This document shows, piece by piece, positions 3,023 through 38,618 of a stretch of 64,000 nt of DNA. The notes under the pieces are model-generated. The model searched no databases. It saw nothing but the letters and a program-made list of their open reading frames with translations, and was not told the DNA's origin. The stretch is from Erwinia sp. HDF1-3R (GTDB lineage Bacteria > Pseudomonadota > Gammaproteobacteria > Enterobacterales > Enterobacteriaceae), in contig NZ_CP155071.1 of NCBI RefSeq assembly GCF_039621855.1, forward strand, positions 3,596,001-3,660,000. The letters are read 5' to 3'. The position numbers were made by a program, and so were the translations under genes. How positions within the stretch are numbered: the stretch's first letter is position 1; the number at the start of each line of letters is the position of its first letter.

Positions 3023-5083
3023 ATGGGTCAGGAAAAGCTTTATACCGTTAAAGAGTTGAGCTGGCTCTCCTTTAACGAGCGCGTCTTACAGGAAGCAGCC
3101 GATAAAACCAACCCGCTGATTGAGCGCATGCGTTTTCTGGGCATTTATTCCAATAACCTTGAAGAGTTTTACAAGGTGCGCTTTGCCGATCTTAAGCGCA
3201 GGATCCTGATTGGTGAAGAACAGGGATCCCCCAGCACACCGCGCCATCTGCTAAAAAAAATCCAGGCGCGCGTGCTGAAGGCAGACCAGGAGTTTGACGG
3301 CCTGTATAACGACCTGCTGCTGGAAATGGCCCGTAACCAGATTTTCCTGATCAACGAACGCCAGCTCTCGCCCAATCAGCAGAGCTGGTTACGTCACTAT
3401 TTTAAACATCATCTGCGCCAGCACATCACGCCTATCCTGGTCAATCACGATACGGACCTGATTGAATTTCTTAAGGATGATTACACCTACCTGGCGGTGG
3501 AGATCATCCGTGGCGAGGAGATAAATTACGCGCTACTGGAGATCCCCTCCGATAAGGTGCCGCGTTTTGTTAACCTGCCGCCCGAAACGCCACGGCGCCG
3601 CAAGCCGATGATCCTGCTGGACAATATCCTCCGCTACTGCCTGGGCGATATCTTTCGTGGCTTCTTTGACTATGACGCGCTGAACGCCTACTCGATGAAG
3701 ATGACCCGCGACGCCGAGTACGATCTGGTCACGGAGATGGAGTCGAGCCTGCTGGAGCTGATGTCCTCAAGCCTTAAGCAGCGTCTGACCGCCGAGCCGG
3801 TGCGCTTTGTTTATCAGCGCGATATGCCGGATGCCATGGTGGAGATGCTGCGTAAGAAGCTCAATATCTCCAACTATGACTCCATTGTGCCGGGTGGGCG
3901 TTACCATAACTTCAAAGACTTTATTACCTTCCCAAACGTCGGCAAGGCAAATCTGGTCAACAAGCCGCTACCGCAGCTGCGCCATATCTGGTTTGACCGC
4001 TTTCGTAACGGTTTTGACGCCATTCGCAACCGCGATGTGCTGCTTTACTATCCCTATCATACCTTTGAGCACGTGCTTGAACTGCTGCGCCAGGCTTCGT
4101 TTGACCCGGCGGTGCTGGCGATAAAAATTAATATTTACCGCGTGGCAAAAAACTCGCGCATCATTGATGCGATGATCCACGCCGCCTACAACGGCAAGAA
4201 AGTGACCGTGGTGGTTGAGCTACAGGCGCGTTTTGATGAAGAAGCCAATATCCATTGGGCTAAACGGCTGACCGAGGCGGGCGTTCACGTTATTTTCTCC
4301 GCGCCCGGTCTGAAAATCCACGCGAAGCTTTTTCTGATTTCCCGACGCGAAAATGGCGAGATTGCCCGCTATGCGCATATCGGCACCGGCAACTTCAATG
4401 AAAAAACCGCGCGGCTCTATACCGACTACTCGCTGCTGACCGCCGATGCCCGCATCACTAACGAAGTCCGCCGGGTATTTAACTTTATTGAAAACCCCTA
4501 TCGGCCCGTCTCGTTTGAACACCTGATGGTCTCACCGCAAAACTCGCGCCAGATGCTTTATCAGCTGATCGACAGTGAAATTGCCAATGCGCAGAACGGG
4601 ATTCCCGCCGCCATCACCCTTAAAGTGAATAACCTTGTCGATAAGGGCCTGGTTGATCGCCTCTATACCGCCTCCAGCGTGGGCGTTAGCGTCAGCCTGC
4701 TGGTGCGTGGCATGTGTTCGCTTATTCCCAATCTTGAAGGAATTAGCGAAAATATCCGGGTAATCAGTATTGTTGACCGCTATCTCGAGCACGATCGCGT
4801 CTATATTTTTGAAAACGGCGGCGACAAAAAGGTCTTCCTCTCCTCCGCTGACTGGATGACCCGCAACATTGATTATCGTATCGAGGTGGCAGTGTCAGTC
4901 CTGGATCCTATTCTGAAACAGCGGGTGCAGGATATTATTGCCATCCTCTTCAGTGATACGCTTAAGGCGCGCTTCGTAGACAAAGAGCTAAGCAACCGGT
5001 ATGTTCCGCGCGGCAATCGCCGCAAGGTACGCGCGCAGCTGGCCATTTACGATTACATTAAATCTCTGGAACAACCTGACTAA
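3023..5083 (+). CDS. ppk: Polyphosphate kinase (Ppk1)
   Basis: Reversibly polymerises the gamma phosphate of ATP into inorganic polyphosphate. The product is 686 residues and aligns along its whole length with E. coli Ppk, two residues shorter near [10 protein letters not shown]. The phosphorylated active-site histidine is in GLKIHAKL (His433 here) and a second conserved histidine is in [10 protein letters not shown]. An in-frame ATG lies 30 bases upstream, but the start at 3023 is preferred because GGAG sits five bases before it and the product then begins MGQEKLY as in E. coli. ppx begins four bases after the stop, so polyphosphate synthesis and breakdown are co-transcribed. Confidence 0.97.
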
Positions 5084-26186: not shown

Positions 26187-27308
26187 TTATTTTTCAACCT
26201 GCTGGACGTCAATTCGACGGGACGCATCCATCATCGCTGCTTTTGCACGGATACGTGCTTCCAGCTGATCGATCATATCGTCATTGTCCAGGCGCTCACG
26301 AAGACGTACGCCATCCTCATAAAAGCCGCTTTTTTTATTGCTGCCGGTCACCCCAAGGGTGGAGACCAGCGCCTCACCGGGGCCGTTAACCACGCAGCCG
26401 ATGATTGACACGTCCATCGGCGTAATGATGTCTTCCAGCCGCTGCTCGAGCGCGTTAACCGTGCCAATCACGTCGAACTCCTGACGCGAACAGGTCGGGC
26501 AGGCAATAAAGTTGATGCCCCTGGCGCGAATACGCAGGGATTTCAGGATATCGAACCCAACCTTCACCTCTTCCACCGGGTCGGCCGCCAGGGAAATACG
26601 CAGCGTGTCACCAATTCCCTCGGAGAGAAGCAGGCCAAGACCGATCGCTGATTTCACCGATCCTGCCCGCGCGCCGCCCGCTTCCGTGATACCCAGGTGC
26701 AGAGGCTGATCGATCTGCTTAGCCAGCAGACGATAGGATTCTACGGCGAGGAACACATCTGAAGCTTTAACGCTGACTTTAAACTGATCGAAATTGAGGC
26801 GATCGAGATGATCGACATGGCGCATGGCCGACTCAAGCAGCGCCTGAGGCGTAGGTTCGCCATACTTTTCCTGCAGGTCCTTTTCCAGCGACCCGGCGTT
26901 GACGCCAATGCGAATCGGAATGTTGTAGTAGCGGGCGCAGTCAACCACCTGGCGGATACGCTCTTCGTTACCAATGTTGCCCGGATTGATGCGCAGGCAG
27001 TCAACGCCGTACTCGGCAACCTTAAGGGCAATACGGTAATCAAAATGGATATCGGCAACCAGCGGGACGTTAACCTGCTGCTTGATCAAACGGAAAGCCT
27101 CTGCGGCCTCCATGGTCGGTACGGAAACGCGTACGATATCGACGCCAACACGCTCAAGCGCTTTAATTTGGCCGACCGTTGCCGCCACGTCGGTGGTACG
27201 GGTATTCGTCATGGACTGTACGGCAATAGGTGCACCGTCGCCCACTGGCACCTTGCCGACGTAAATGCGCGTAGATTTGCGACGGATGATGGGTGCTTCG
27301 TTATGCAT
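26187..27308 (-). CDS. ispG: IspG, 4-hydroxy-3-methylbut-2-enyl diphosphate synthase
   Basis: [4Fe-4S] enzyme of the MEP isoprenoid pathway that converts MEcPP to HMBPP. The product is 373 residues. The cluster ligands are in [11 protein letters not shown] (two Cys) and [11 protein letters not shown] (Cys and Glu). The TIM barrel shows [22 protein letters not shown] and [13 protein letters not shown]. The ATG at 27308 is chosen over 27323 because GGAG lies seven bases before it and the product then starts MHNEAP as in E. coli. Its need for Fe-S clusters matters given the reduced isc locus in this window. Confidence 0.97.
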
Positions 27309-29140: not shown

Positions 29141-30310
29141 TCAGAGCGCTTTCACAGAAATGGCCTCTCCCGCCATTTTTTTACGCAGCGTTCGCTTCGT
29201 GCGGTCAATCACCTCGCCAGCAAGCTGACCACAGGCGGCGTCGATATCATCTCCGCGGGTTTTACGCACGATCGTGGTAAACCCATATTCCATCAGTACC
29301 TTAGAGAAGCGATCGATCCGGCTGTTGGAGCTGCGGCCATAGGGCGCCCCCGGGAAGGGGTTCCAGGGAATAAGGTTGATTTTGCACGGCGTATTCTTGA
29401 GCAGTGCGGCCAGCTCATGCGCGTTATCGGTACTGTCATTGACCTGATCGAGCATGACATATTCAATCGTCACGCGGCCCTGATTAGCATTTGATTTCGC
29501 GATATAGCGGCTAACCGCCCCTAAGAAAGTCTCGATATTGTACTTTTTGTTGATCGGCACAATTTCGTCACGAATTGTGTCATTCGGGGCGTGTAGCGAA
29601 ATTGCCAGCGCCACGTCGATCATATCACCCAGCTTGTCCAGCGCAGGAACCACGCCGGAGGTTGAGAGCGTGACGCGACGTTTTGACAAACCGAAGCCGA
29701 AATCATCCAGCATAATTTCCATGGCCGGTACAACGTTATTCAGGTTCAGCAGCGGTTCGCCCATCCCCATCATTACCACATTGGTAATAGGACGCTGGCC
29801 GGTCACTTTCGAGGCGCCGATAATTTTGGCCGCGCGCCAGACCTGACCGATAATTTCAGATACGCGGAGGTTGCGGTTAAAGCCCTGCTGAGCCGTCGAG
29901 CAGAATTTACACTCCAGCGCGCAGCCAACCTGTGAAGAGACGCAGAGCGTGGCGCGATCCTTTTCGGGGATGTAGACGGTTTCGACCTGCTGTCCCCCCA
30001 CGGTAATCGCCCACTTGATGGTGCCATCCGATGAGCGCTGCTCTTCTGCCACTTCCGGGGCACGGATCTCAGCCACCTCTTTCAGCTTGCCGCGAAAAAC
30101 CTTGTTGATGTCGGTCATCTCGTCGAAATCATCACAGCAGTAGTGATACATCCACTTCATCACCTGATCGGCGCGAAAGGGTTTCTCACCCAGGCTGGCG
30201 AAGAATTCGCGCATTTGCTGGCGATTAAGATCGAGCAGGTTAATTTTTTCTTTTTTGGCGGCGGCGATGACGGGGACGTCGGACGACGGACTCACAATAT
30301 GTTCAGACAT
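29141..30310 (-). CDS. rlmN: RlmN, dual 23S rRNA/tRNA m2A methyltransferase
   Basis: Radical-SAM enzyme that methylates C2 of A2503 in 23S rRNA and A37 in some tRNAs. It is 389 residues. The cluster motif is [15 protein letters not shown] (CxxxCxxC). [12 protein letters not shown] is present, with the two mechanistic cysteines in [10 protein letters not shown] and DAACGQLAG. It requires a [4Fe-4S] cluster. It is upstream of pilW and rodZ on the same strand. Confidence 0.97.
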
Positions 30311-32304: not shown

Positions 32305-33960
32305 TTATTTGGCAGGTAGCGCCAGGGGAATGGACATCTCGTGGCGGAAGAGATTATTAGGATCCACTGCCCGTTTGGTTTTCACCAGACTCTCGGCTTT
32401 GTCCCCGTAATAAAGTGTTAACCACTCTGGATCAACTTTCGCATGGTCGGCGGCGGTATATTTCATATCCGTGTCGGGGTAGTTGATGTAGCACCCCTGA
32501 TAGCGGCCATCATTACCGTAAGGTTTGCCGCCCTGATCGGCAAAACAGGCGGAATAAAGCTTCTGCATCCAGTTAATGCAGTATTGATCGTTCGCTTTAT
32601 CGGTCCAGTACACCTGGAACTGCGCCTTTAACAACGAGCTGCGCTGATATACCGAGGTCGGGTTGGTGGTTTCATCATTGGTATTAATACAGCCGCCGTA
32701 AGAGTCGATCTGCACCAGCGCCTGATTAAGGAGAGGATCGTCTGCGCCGTTCAGCCCTTCCCACAATGCGGTAATCTCGGTTGCGCCAAAATTACCAATC
32801 TGCTGGTCAGATTTATATTTGCCACGCTGGTTATCCCCTGAGCCATTGAGCGTCTGGGTGGCATACAGCCAGTCGATTAGCCGCGCATCCTTGACCGCGT
32901 CTTTGAACTTTCTTTTGCTTTCAGCCTGAGCGTTTACCACCCCATACGTCATGCCCATCTCAATAACATCCGGCACGACGCCAGCCGCCTTGTTCATGGT
33001 GTCCACGAAGTCAGCGAAGGGCTTTTCCTGCCCGCTGCCGTCCACCCGGCCATCATTGCCTGTGTACTGAATAAGCAGATGAATGTCGCCGGTGGAGCGG
33101 TGCTGGAGCTTCAGTAATGAGAAGAGTCCACCGTTAGCCTTCGTGATATCCTGGCTGTTCCATTCTGAATCATGGGTGTTAAACCACTGCCAGTAGCTAT
33201 TCAGGAACTGACCAAAGTGCGCTTTGTCTTTAAAAGTACTCCATGGCCAGGCCAGCGACAGCAGATAAACCTGCTCAGGTGCAGCAGGCAGTTCGGCAAA
33301 GTAGTAGTTAAGAATAATTCCGAAGTTACCCCCGCCCGCACCGCGACAGGCGATAAAAAGATCGCGATCGCTTCCGGTACTTTTCAGGCTCACGTGCTTT
33401 GCCAGGAGCGATTTTCCATCAGCCGCCGGTACCAGTATATCCACGCCCGACAGCCAGTCGACCGTCAGACCATGCAGGCGGGAGAGCAGCCCATATCCGC
33501 CCCCGCTGATATGACCGCCAGCGCCGACAGAGTAGCAGGAGCCGCCGGGAATAGAGCGGTTTGCCAGTTTGTATAAATTAACGGTGCCGTCCCAGTTTTG
33601 ATTACCACTTGCCGCACGAAACTTGTATTTTGCGCTGGTATCCCAGGGTGAGCTGATATCAGCATTTTCACTGAAATCCATCCCCACCAGCAGGCTGAGA
33701 TCGATTATCGCCAGGGGGGTCGTCCCATCCGCCGCCAGCTTGTTGCTGACAAAGCCTTCATAGCAGTGACCGCCACTGCGCACCGTAATCCGCTGATTAC
33801 GCGCCAGAGCGGCATTAGCCGCAGAGAGGACGTCTTCACTGTTGTTGCAGACATAAATATAATCTGCCCCACTGCCCTGCTCGGGCCAGCGTAAATTAAA
33901 CCCCTTTTTTAACGTTTCGAATCGGGTATCGGTTTTATCAATCAAGTTATAGCTACTCAT
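32305..33960 (-). CDS. Berberine-bridge-type FAD-linked oxidase, probably with bicovalent FAD
   Basis: A 551-residue flavoprotein with an N-terminal PCMH-type FAD domain and a C-terminal BBE segment (CYINYPDTDM ... YGDKAESLVKTKRAVDPNNLF). The usual sites for double flavin attachment are both visible: His in VRSGGHCYEGF and Cys in GGSCYSVGAGGHISGGGYG. Relatives oxidise sugars, oligosaccharides or alkaloids; the substrate cannot be read. No signal peptide is apparent. ATG 33960 is chosen (GGAG about eight bases upstream) over 33993. It is inserted between sseA and sseB, is absent from the E. coli locus and is likely acquired. Confidence 0.85.
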   Translation of the reverse strand: MSSYNLIDKTDTRFETLKKGFNLRWPEQGSGADYIYVCNNSEDVLSAANAALARNQRITVRSGGHCYEGFVSNKLAADGTTPLAIIDLSLLVGMDFSENADISSPWDTSAKYKFRAASGNQNWDGTVNLYKLANRSIPGGSCYSVGAGGHISGGGYGLLSRLHGLTVDWLSGVDILVPAADGKSLLAKHVSLKSTGSDRDLFIACRGAGGGNFGIILNYYFAELPAAPEQVYLLSLAWPWSTFKDKAHFGQFLNSYWQWFNTHDSEWNSQDITKANGGLFSLLKLQHRSTGDIHLLIQYTGNDGRVDGSGQEKPFADFVDTMNKAAGVVPDVIEMGMTYGVVNAQAESKRKFKDAVKDARLIDWLYATQTLNGSGDNQRGKYKSDQQIGNFGATEITALWEGLNGADDPLLNQALVQIDSYGGCINTNDETTNPTSVYQRSSLLKAQFQVYWTDKANDQYCINWMQKLYSACFADQGGKPYGNDGRYQGCYINYPDTDMKYTAADHAKVDPEWLTLYYGDKAESLVKTKRAVDPNNLFRHEMSIPLALPAK

Positions 33961-34392
33961 TCTATTTCTCCGTCTTAGTTTGGATAACGTCATAAGATGC
34001 AGGAAAGTAGCCGATTCATAAGGATGAAGGAAATTAAAGAAGAAGGTAAATAGTGCTAATCGACTTACACCACCCTAATGGAAATTATTCACGCCAGAGG
34101 CATAATAGTGACTCATGCCACCCATAGTAGTCATGAGTTAATTCATTCTCTTTGCTTTTTTTGATATTTTAACATGTAAAAAATGTCAAAATAACGCTCC
34201 CGACTGACGTAGCAACGTGCAACGGTATTACGTGCAGTTAATTATCAAAGCACATTACGGCGGTGAATGGGGTAATGGCCATCATCGCAGCGGAGAATGG
34301 GGTTATAGCCCATCATCGCGGCGGGTAACGCTGTGGGTCAGCAGCCTGATGTGGGCGAGTTATTGAGTCAGCGTAAAATTAGCGCCGTCAGA
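33961..34392. other. Gene-free interval between the flavoenzyme gene and sseB
   Basis: About 430 bases with no convincing frame. The left half is AT-rich and probably holds the flavoenzyme promoter. The right part holds an imperfect 30-base direct repeat. Confidence 0.5.
34262..34322. repeat. Imperfect 30-31-base direct repeat downstream of sseB
   Basis: Copy one (34262-34291) and copy two (34292-34322) share GG-GAATGGGGT-AT-GCC and ATCATCGC-GC. They are adjacent, with five substitutions or indels. No coding function is seen. Confidence 0.65.
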
Positions 34393-35272: not shown

Positions 35273-36556
35273 TTATTTCAGCAGCAGGTTAGCCACCGTG
35301 CGAACGCCAAGGCCGGTGGCACCTGCGGACCACTGATCCACCGCTCCCTTACGGTAGGTGGCGGAACAGTCGATATGAAGCCAGCCCTGCTGATAACGGC
35401 TCACAAAGTGAGAAAGAAACGCCGCCGCCGAACTGGCTCCAGCCGTATGGGACGGGGCCGCGATATTGTTCAGATCGGCAAAGTTAGAGGGCAGGTAGCC
35501 GCGGTGGAACTCCGCCAGCGGCAGACGCCAGAAAGGCTCATTTTCATGCGCGGCACTGCTGAGCAGCGACTGAGCCAGCGAATCATCGAAGCTGAAAAGG
35601 GCGTGATAATCATTACCCAGCGCCGTTTTCGCCGCACCGGTCAGGGTGGCGGCATCGATCAGCAATTCCGGATCCTGCTGGCTGGCATCAATCAGGCCAT
35701 CGGCCAGCACCAGGCGACCTTCCGCATCGGTGTTCATCACCTCAACCGTTTTACCGTTGCGATAACGGATAATATCGCCCAACCGCAGCGCGTTGCCGCT
35801 GACCATATTATCCGCGCAGCAGAGATAGAGTTTGACGCGCTTTTTCAGTCCGCGAACAATAGCCAGCGCCAGTGCGCCGGTCAGGGTCGCGGCCCCGCCC
35901 ATATCCGATTTCATCGAATCCATGGATCCGCTGGGCTTCAGGCTGTACCCACCGGTATCGAAGGTAATACCTTTACCGACCAGGCAGGCAAATACGGGGG
36001 CATTTTCATCCCCGCCCGGATTATAATCCAGCACCAACAGCGCTGGCGCGCGGGTCGATCCCCGGCCCACGGTATGCAGCCCGGAATATCCCTGCTGGCG
36101 CAGATCGTCACCTTTGGTTATGCGATAGCTCACGCTTTCGCCAGCCACGCCGGACAGCAGATCGACGGCGCGCTGGGTCAGCTGTTCAGGGCTGAGATCT
36201 TCAGCCGGCAGGTTAATGGTGTTGCGTACCCAGTCAATAATCTTAAGGCGGTTATCAAATTCAGCGCGATCGCTCTCATTCAGATCGGCCCATTCGACTT
36301 TACGCTCGCCTTTGGGACCGCGATAGCCCTGCCAGAACGCCCAGCTTTTCTCCAGATCCCAGTCGCCACTAAGACTCACGTGCCGGATCCCCTGCGCATC
36401 AATTTTTCTCGCCGCGCGCTGGATAGTGGTCAGGGCATCGCCACCGTTAAGATGGATAGTCATGCCGCTGTCGTTGCTGGTCAATGTTGCCTTTTCTCCC
36501 CAGCGTGGATCTGCCGCTGTCGTTGACAGTGTTATTTTCATTGGTGTTGTTGTCAT
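35273..36556 (-). CDS. pepB: Peptidase B (M17 aminopeptidase)
   Basis: Leucyl-aminopeptidase family exopeptidase with two metals, 427 residues, equal to E. coli PepB. The M17 signature [15 protein letters not shown] and metal/catalytic regions [12 protein letters not shown] and MKSDMGGAA are intact. ATG 36556 (GGAG seven bases upstream) restores the E. coli length; the frame extending to 36610 is rejected. In E. coli pepB ends the isc cluster after iscX. Here it follows iscS by about 150 bases, with a terminator between. Confidence 0.97.
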
Positions 36557-36660
36557 CGCATGGCTCCTTTTGAGCTGTTCATCGAATTTGGTCTTGAATG
36601 CGTCGGTCACTACAATAAACCTTTATTTGCTTTCGTCTAACCCAAAGCGCAATTAAACGC

Positions 36661-36687
36661 AAAACGGGCCAGTTTTACCCGGCCCGT
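36661..36687 (-). terminator. Rho-independent terminator directly after iscS
   Basis: On the minus strand ACGGGCC, a ten-base loop and GGCCCGT are followed by TTTTG. It begins 22 bases after the iscS stop, where iscU begins in E. coli, and closes iscRS as a two-gene unit. Confidence 0.8.
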
Positions 36688-36708
36688 CAATGACATAAAA
36701 GCATGGCC

Positions 36709-37869
36709 TTAGCGCACGGCGAGCTCACGCAGGCGGCGAATAGTCCGCTGGATCAGCTGAACGGCATAGTCAATTTCTTCTTCGGTGGTGTAGCGCCCCA
36801 GCGAAAAACGGAGCGAACTGTGCGCCAGCGCCTCAGACAGCCCCAGCGCGCGCAGCACGTAGGAAGGTTCCAGGCTGGCAGAGGTACAGGCAGAGCCGGA
36901 GGAGAGCGCGAGATCCTTCAACCCCATGATCAGCGACTCGCCGTCAACATTACTGAAACTGACGTTCAGAATATTGGGCGCGCCGCCTTCTGCAACGCCA
37001 TTCACATACACCCCGTCAATTTCGCTGATGCCCCGCCACAGACGCGATCGCAGCTGATCTATGCGTGCCATTTCAGCCGTCATTACTTCTTTAGCAATAC
37101 CGTAGGCTTCGCCCATACCGACAATCTGATGCACCGGCAGCGTGCCGGAACGCATACCGCGCTCGTGGCCGCCACCGTGGATCTGCGCTTCCAGTCGAAT
37201 ACGGGGCTGGCGACGCACGTAAAGCCCGCCGATCCCCTTTGGACCATAGAGTTTATGCGCGGAAAATGACATCAGATCGACCGGGAGCTGGCTGAGGTCG
37301 ATGGGGAGTTTCCCCACGCTCTGCGTGGCGTCAACGTGAAAGAGGATATTGCGCGCGCGGCAGAGTTCGCCAATAGCGGCGATGTTCTGGATGACGCCGG
37401 TTTCGTTATTAACGTGCATGATCGAGACCAGAATGGTGTCTTCACGCAGGGCGTTTTGAATGGAGGCGAGATCGATCTGACCGCTGCGCTGCGGGGCAAG
37501 CCAGGTTATCTCGAAGCCTTCGCGCTCAAGCTGCAAGCAGGCATCCAGCACGGCTTTGTGTTCGGTCTGGCAGGTAACGATGTGTCGCCCTTTTTCCTGA
37601 TGAAAATGAGCAGCACCTTTGATGGCGAGGTTATCAGATTCGGTCGCGCCGGAGGTAAAAACAATCTCACGCGGGTCGGCGCCAATCAGATCGGCAACCT
37701 GATTACGGGCCACGTCAACGGCCTCTTCCGCCTGCCAGCCGTAGCGATGGGAACGGGAAGCCGCATTACCGAAGGTTCCGTCCAGGGTGAGAAACTGCAT
37801 CATCTTCTCTGCCACGCGCGGATCGGCAGGCGTGGTGGCGGCATAGTCCAGGTAGATCGGTAATTTCAT
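36709..37869 (-). CDS. iscS: Cysteine desulfurase IscS lacking the C-terminal IscU-binding tail
   Basis: PLP enzyme that draws sulfur from cysteine for Fe-S clusters, tRNA thiolation and cofactors. It is 386 residues against 404 in E. coli. The PLP lysine loop [16 protein letters not shown] and the active cysteine loop [21 protein letters not shown] are intact. Sequence identity is high up to [10 protein letters not shown], then it stops; E. coli continues for about 18 residues ending SIEWAHH. That tail contacts IscU in the known IscS-IscU complex. The start is ATG 37869 ([13 protein letters not shown] nine bases upstream). iscU and all later isc genes are absent. The enzyme should still release sulfur and could serve TusA, ThiI or other acceptors. 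Confidence 0.95.
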
Positions 37870-37982
37870 GACGTTCGGCTCCGTATCGCTCACAACCTGT
37901 CGGGCAATCTGACAGTGTGGCGACAGGTTCCTGCTGATTTCACGAAGGGGAGTCGGGAATCAGCAGGAAGCTTTAGCAACCG

Positions 37983-38480
37983 TCAGGCACGCAGGTTGAC
38001 GTTAATGGTTTCATGCGTGCGCCCGGCAGGCACACGATTTTTTTCAGTGGTGTTCTGGCGGTCGGCTACCTCAAGGATATCCTGATTATTGACCAGTTCA
38101 GCCAGCGTAATATTGTTCAGGAAGTCGCTAATGCGTTCACTCAGATCGCGCCACAGTACGTGGGTCAGACAGCGTTGACCACCCTGACAGCCCTCTTTGC
38201 CCTGGCACTTAGTGGCATCAACTGACTCATCCACGGCGGTGATCACCGCGCCAACGGCGATAGCATCCGAGGCTTTACCCAACAGATAACCGCCACCCGG
38301 TCCGCGAACGCTGGCGACCAGACCATTTTTGCGCAGGCGAGAGAACAGCTGTTCCAGATAGGAGAGGGAGATGCCCTGACGCTCTGAAATATCCGCGAGT
38401 GGCACCGGCCCCTCATGAGAGTGCAGCGCAACATCAAGCATAGCGGTAACGGCATAACGGCCTTTGGATGTCAGTCTCAT
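37983..38480 (-). CDS. iscR: Fe-S cluster regulator IscR
   Basis: Rrf2-family [2Fe-2S] regulator of 165 residues. The winged helix has [20 protein letters not shown] and [11 protein letters not shown]. The cluster ligands are conserved in [20 protein letters not shown] (three Cys and His). It represses its own operon when holding a cluster and acts in the apo form on type 2 sites such as the suf promoter. It is first in the operon with iscS, 113 bases apart. Repeated type 1 sites lie upstream. Confidence 0.97.
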
Positions 38481-38543
38481 GGCGTAAACGACCTCAGTTG
38501 TCCCCTGGTGGGGTTTAACAAAATGATGTCCGCAAGTCTGCCA

Positions 38544-38618
38544 TTCCCGAGTGATTTGGTCAACTATTTAACCAAGTAAAATACTCAACTATTTAACCTG
38601 GTAATTTACTCAACTATT
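38544..38618 (-). promoter_or_regulatory. Three tandem IscR type 1-like sites
   Basis: Three head-to-tail 25-base units (38544-38568, 38569-38593, 38594-38618) each begin AATAGTTGA on the minus strand. The middle and outer units differ at few positions; the promoter-proximal unit carries TTGACC, a probable -35. The units resemble the type 1 IscR sites of the E. coli iscR promoter, where I recall two. Confidence 0.75.

Follow-up and report, generated by a model that had tools for sequence, protein, structure and literature searches.

Recurrent loss of the Isc machinery, and loss of frataxin, in Erwinia and its relatives, with partner-selective decay of the retained cysteine desulfurase IscS

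In the plant-associated bacterium Erwinia sp. HDF1-3R the isc locus has been reduced to iscR and iscS. This genome encodes Suf and lacks both the Isc machinery and frataxin (CyaY), and the same is true of 35 of 36 further genomes sampled from the genus. We consider it very probable that ISC and CyaY were lost, that Suf is likely the sole maker of Fe-S clusters, and that IscS was kept, probably for tRNA sulfur, as the surfaces on which its former partners docked decayed.

In the window (the whole stretch of 64,000 nucleotides analyzed), the minus-strand order is trmJ, iscR, iscS, a junction with a terminator-like hairpin, pepB, and sseB (Table 1). A reading made from the sequence alone had described a locus cut down to iscR-iscS, and this was borne out by ORFs checked against NCBIfam models and by tblastn, in which the Serratia isc proteins (L059) found no iscU, iscA, hscB, hscA, fdx, or iscX at the locus. 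IscS scored 662.7 bits against TIGR02006 (cut-off 643.2; profile positions 1-382 of 402 aligned). Exactly 152 bases separate the iscS stop from the pepB ATG, which agrees with that reading, as does the terminator within them. Its statement that no fragment of the six genes is visible holds for coding sequence, since the window did not exceed the shuffle 99th percentile for any of the six (74 junctions compared), but the terminator itself resembles the one that follows fdx in G006, the only sampled genome of the genus with ISC (local score 28, against 20 for the 99th percentile of shuffles). Of 76 IscU-minus junctions scanned for hairpins, 17 gave one with a T-run, so that a relic terminator is not universal. 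The Fe-S enzymes named in the sequence-only reading (IspG, RlmN, and IscR itself) are indeed present, the first two above their NCBIfam cut-offs and IscR with its cluster ligands. The window also contains a 562-aa ORF (32305-33993, minus strand) between sseB and sseA, with a weak match, far below cut-off, to the FAD-dependent oxygenase models BagG/FevA2; ORFs of 1650 and 655 aa between sseA and ndk in Pantoea L050 are absent from it.

Table 1. Features of the reduced isc locus, retained Fe-S enzymes, and the conserved region upstream of sufA. Coordinates are those of the window unless another record is named.
Feature	Coordinates	Strand	Basis or remark
iscR, Fe-S cluster regulator	37983..38480	-	NF008110 and TIGR02010 above NCBIfam cut-off; C92, C98, C104, H107 kept
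Three tandem 25-bp repeats 5' of iscR	38593-38617, 38568-38592, 38543-38567 (span 38543..38617)	-	
iscS, cysteine desulfurase, 386 aa, without C-terminal IscU-docking tail	36709..37869	-	NCBIfam model
iscS-pepB junction, 152 bp, iscU-iscA-hscB-hscA-fdx-iscX missing	36557..36708	-	ORF coordinates and tblastn
Terminator-like hairpin 3' of iscS	36663..36688	-	Hairpin scan; like the terminator after fdx in G006
pepB, right-hand flank of missing genes	35273..36556	-	NF003450 above cut-off
rlmN, radical-SAM Fe-S enzyme still needing clusters	29141..30310	-	NF008396 and TIGR00048 above cut-off
ispG, Fe-S enzyme still needing clusters	26187..27308	-	NF001540 and TIGR00612 above cut-off
Conserved sufA upstream block	L092, about 4395-4470; also L125-L136		5' of sufA

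Three ways for the cell to make clusters had been named from the sequence: Suf, isc genes relocated elsewhere, or another scaffold. That the isc genes lie elsewhere, or that the junction is an assembly error, has hardly any chance of being correct. The genome (4,847,909 bases in 2 contigs, 100% complete) gave no match in whole-genome profile searches to IscU/NifU_N (PF01592), the HscB C-terminal domain, or the IscX model, and its three A-type domain matches are SufA, ErpA, and NfuA, so that IscA is missing too; G006 has a fourth such match, at isc. The iscS-to-iscX DNA of G006, used as query, matched only iscS, a piece of sufA, and an hscA-like piece of about 195 bp that we take for dnaK; no isc copy of hscA or fdx was found by this DNA-level query, the level at which both were searched. 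The identical junction is present in a second assembly, Erwinia sp. ErVv1 (L002), the closest titled record, whose flanking proteins are 100% identical to those of the window, and IscU is also missing from G029, of the same species, and from 34 further genomes of the genus. Relocated isc genes were ruled out because the IscU, HscB, and IscX models and the operon DNA query all came back empty. The genome-wide search that the sequence-only reading had proposed thus found the isc genes missing and sufABCDSE and NfuA complete. With relocation excluded and a complete sufABCDSE operon in place, Suf is the answer by elimination.

The reduced locus is not peculiar to this strain. Profile searches of the 37 genomes of the genus found IscU missing from 36 and HscB in one, G006 in both cases being the genome that has it. 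For IscX, G006 alone exceeded the cut-off; G005 gave a weak remnant match, and an iscX remnant was seen at DNA level in G005 and G033. A comparison of the locus in relatives, likewise proposed beforehand, revealed the same lack of iscU in 53 of 80 titled pepB loci; 26 have iscU and L056 stops short of the region. The iscU-less loci belong to Erwinia, Pantoea, Winslowiella, Mixta mediterraneensis, and a few MAGs or otherwise labelled records, all in the Erwiniaceae part of the tree, and iscU is kept in Mixta theicola, M. tenebrionis, Izhakiella, Erwinia sp. OLFS4, Pectobacterium, Serratia, and the Enterobacteriaceae rows. None of 28 further loci from other IscU-minus genomes has a recognizable iscU (the best match, 51% in L118, was taken as a remnant). 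What had been seen as a change in one genome is therefore real but is the rule in sampled Erwinia and Pantoea, has arisen more than once, and also extends to frataxin and the surface of IscS.

Some record labels disagree with the tree. 'Enterobacter' EnVs2 and M004 fall inside Pantoea (records L025, L031, L047, and L071 have odd labels), Mixta mediterraneensis pairs with Pantoea haifensis, and Erwinia sp. OLFS4 pairs with Izhakiella. Genomes of 0.4-0.6 Mb in the same family (e.g., genera g11, g53, and g60) keep IscU, the opposite of free-living Erwinia.

ISC was lost more than once, as judged from phylogenies of flanking proteins and from the remnants left behind. On the main tree (eight flanking proteins, 82 rows) the IscU label needs at least 3 changes; without L056 this tree implies 4 losses when regain is disallowed and rejects a single IscU-minus clade (p-AU 0.022). 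For a second tree, built from four proteins and 102 rows, the minimum is 5 changes, of which supported branches force 4, and the number of losses without any regain is 7; because that tree leaves 23 forks open and contains two long rows, we placed more weight on the eight-protein tree. Winslowiella (IscU-minus) is sister to G006 (IscU-plus) in both, with support of 95 and 100 in the eight- and four-protein trees, respectively. The remnants vary by lineage, with hscA in L098 and L104, hscB and iscX in L026, and iscX in, among others, both Winslowiella, L029 and L012. It is the rejection of a single isc-minus clade together with these differing remnants that argues for more than one loss.

A single loss in the Erwinia-Pantoea ancestor, followed by regain through transfer in G006, Mixta, and Izhakiella, would be compatible with the eight-protein tree, which needs only 3 changes when gains are allowed, yet we judge it decidedly unlikely. 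The G006 operon sits at the native locus, next to an iscS with the full tail, in a genome that has kept CyaY too, and the isc remnants are unlike between lineages. With support 100, the five isc proteins of G006 cluster with those of Mixta, Izhakiella, and OLFS4, in a clade that adjoins the Enterobacteriaceae rows and is not nested in a foreign family; most likely, then, G006 kept its own operon. Regain by transfer is not supported by the isc protein tree.

Frataxin followed the same pattern although cyaY is unlinked to isc. CyaY was found in 1 of the 37 genomes of the genus, G006, the same one that has IscU and HscB; in HDF1-3R the gene is gone from between cyaA and lptM-dapF, all of which (as we take the neighbors to be) are intact. 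Of the 392 genomes sampled from the family, 277 have IscU and 256 have CyaY: both in 254, IscU only in 23, CyaY only in 2, and neither in 113. CyaY without IscU occurs in G258, where the match has an E-value of 4.9e-4, and in G394, a draft assembly in 330 contigs. The IscU-only group of 23 consists of 17 genomes that do not exceed 1.0 Mb and six larger ones; in the latter, G346 has a completeness of 84%, and the matches in G176, G254, G337, and G396, near 1e-46, are weaker than the usual IscU match and may represent NifU rather than IscU. Many of the 113 genomes with neither are of symbiont size, and 29 of the 74 with a size shown are 2 Mb or larger. Because many IscU-only and neither genomes are small, the 392-genome table is no clean test by itself. 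Co-occurrence of frataxin with ISC genes has long been known, and the CyaY losses in Erwinia fit this association. The four large genomes without CyaY whose sole NifU_N match is weak (G176, G254, G337, and G396) have an isc locus reduced to iscR-iscS (L103, L107, L098, and L104), and may hold nif systems.

Suf is present throughout. The SufB/D core was detected in all 37 genomes of the genus by profile search (one match only in the fragmented G030), and in HDF1-3R sufA, B, C, D, S, and E are six ORFs in this order on L092, each above its NCBIfam cut-off. The carriers ErpA and NfuA are present and model-confirmed in the same genome. Data from E. coli pointed strongly to ErpA being unable to use SUF when SufA is absent (PMC2682760, in part), a result that fits the retention of both SufA and ErpA in Erwinia.

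Could a different, unrecognized scaffold have replaced IscU, with Suf still serving as a stress system? Across 13 Erwinia sufA upstream regions, 12 of them ISC-minus and one from the ISC-plus G006, none of which matched type-2 IscR or Fur patterns, a block that begins near AATCCCTGCAAAACAAGAGGTTGAAG hardly varies. With this block shared by ISC-plus and ISC-minus genomes, no rewired suf promoter is visible, which would suit such a replacement. The genome, however, has no second NifU_N protein, so that a second NifU-type scaffold was rejected; NfuA, SufA, and ErpA are carriers that occur beside ISC too, and IscS has lost its scaffold-docking tail. We regard a replacement scaffold as very improbable, and infer that Suf alone suffices.

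The retained IscS was compared with published partner sites. As described in excerpts of PMC2854127, IscU contacts residues 309-316, 347, and helix 379-391, and deletion of the C-terminal tail leaves IscU binding lost or low; TusA contacts W45, E49, D52, R55, and R237; and IscX and CyaY have common sites at R116, R220, R223, R225/E227, G234, R237/M239, and R340. The R220/R223/R225 patch also aids TusA binding (PMC11302665, in part). In total, 108 IscS proteins were aligned, 27 from IscU-plus and 81 from IscU-minus loci, the window included (E. coli numbering); the figures given below are identities to the IscU-plus consensus within the 81 IscU-minus rows. All 27 IscU-plus proteins are 404 aa long and end in EWxHH, an ending found in 0 of the 81 IscU-minus rows; the window's protein ends at residue 386. 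Five IscU-plus rows inside the Erwiniaceae part of the tree have the full tail, so tail loss is not a family trait.

Erosion of IscS was selective by partner across these rows. The catalytic residues H104, K206, and C328 are at 1.00, and so are the TusA contacts W45, E49, and D52, with R237 at 0.98 (mean with R55, 0.995). Helix 379-391 stands at 0.41 and the tail (392-404) at 0.04, both below all 5,000 random site sets, which ignore shared ancestry. R112 (0.04), E309 (0.31), E227 (0.42), R225 (0.48), and R223 (0.64) are eroded and R220 is kept (0.99). The five IscX/CyaY-only sites gave P = 0.006 against random site sets that again ignore shared ancestry, R39 and G234 being the ones not eroded. 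Taken as one set, the IscU crystal contacts 309-316 and 347 (0.842) do not fall below background (P = 0.27), nor does the broad TusA/ThiI site class rise above it (0.897 versus 0.882), since F89 (0.43) and R116 (0.63) are eroded. Four supported independent pairs all changed in the same direction (sign test p = 0.125, with significance out of reach for four pairs). Single changes D346R, L386R, and M389R still allowed IscU binding in pull-downs (PMC2854127, in part), so a substitution there alone need not abolish binding. The deletion of iscU could have clipped the IscS tail directly; it cannot have caused the internal substitutions.

K92, K101, R112, D283, N306, and M344 are invariant or nearly so in IscU-plus IscS and are kept in 0-17% of IscU-minus rows. 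With the exception of R112, these residues lie outside the published partner sites compared, and they may mark ISC contacts still to be assigned.

TusA had one match in each of the 37 genomes of the genus and was confirmed in HDF1-3R. IscS would probably have been retained as a sulfur donor to TusA, and perhaps ThiI, for tRNA thiolation and other thio-cofactors. SufS and SufE would mobilize the sulfur from which SufBCD builds all Fe-S clusters, as gene content suggests, with SufA, ErpA, and NfuA passing the clusters on. Once IscU was gone, the IscU-docking tail and some of the IscX/CyaY contacts of IscS would have been free to decay.

IscR has kept its cluster ligands. C92, C98, C104, and H107 are invariant in all 74 IscU-minus IscR rows, and two or three tandem 25-bp repeats precede iscR in 13 of 13 regions compared, IscU-plus and IscU-minus. 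These repeats resemble type-1 IscR sites; if they are such sites, IscR must still be supplied with a cluster, presumably by Suf, whose output it would then sense in place of that of Isc. An iscR deletion in Pantoea stewartii slowed growth in vitro in a 2022 study, an excerpt of which calls suf a second pathway, citing E. coli (PMC8882988). If that species is Suf-only, the defect would fit a cell that needs IscR for suf.

Taken together, enterobacterial lineages have, we think likely, repeatedly dropped ISC and frataxin and kept iscR-iscS, IscS each time shedding its IscU-docking surface and part of its IscX/frataxin surface and keeping the tRNA-sulfur surface. This natural experiment would map the faces of IscS, in which the eroded K92, K101, R112, D283, and M344 may mark contacts to be assigned, and would provide close relatives of E. 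coli that depend solely on Suf. Work on enterobacteria commonly assumes the E. coli division of labor, in which Isc is the housekeeping system and Suf the stress system. If Suf is all that Erwinia and Pantoea use, this model fails for a large plant-associated group of relatives. Closely related bacteria that differ in having ISC offer a direct test of what ISC and frataxin do, of whether Suf can serve respiratory complexes, and of how IscR behaves with Suf as the only supplier, and the partner-selective decay of IscS amounts to an interface map derived from evolution.

None of the literature matches listed described a loss of ISC from Erwinia or Pantoea, and survey tables (e.g., Garcia et al. 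2022) may already list these genomes as SUF-only. The new part is the parallel losses beside ISC-plus sisters together with the partner-selective decay of IscS. The 'Erwinia chrysanthemi' of earlier work we take to be today's Dickeya; the name appears in a passage of PMC8593673. SUF-only bacteria are already known to be common, and the mutual exclusion of ISC and SUF is in print for Gammaproteobacteria (PMC11559095 and PMC10631705, in part). Relevant sections of PMC10631705 describe ISC as lost in many alphaproteobacteria and ISC and SUF as mutually exclusive in Gammaproteobacteria; the alphaproteobacterial case resembles ours in that ISC was inherited vertically and then repeatedly lost, and the part compared holds nothing on Erwinia, Pantoea, or IscS surfaces. 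Erwinia shares with E. coli, which has both ISC and SUF, the suf gene order, IscR, ErpA, NfuA, and the IscS-TusA contacts (PMC11559095 and PMC2682760, in part), but is without iscUA-hscBA-fdx-iscX and cyaY, ISC being the housekeeping system in E. coli. Like Staphylococcus aureus, Mycobacterium tuberculosis, and Enterococcus faecalis, the SUF-only bacteria named in an excerpt of PMC11559095, it has SUF as its one cluster machine and no IscU; unlike them, it has close ISC-plus sisters, an iscR-iscS stump still in place, and an IscS that decayed partner by partner.
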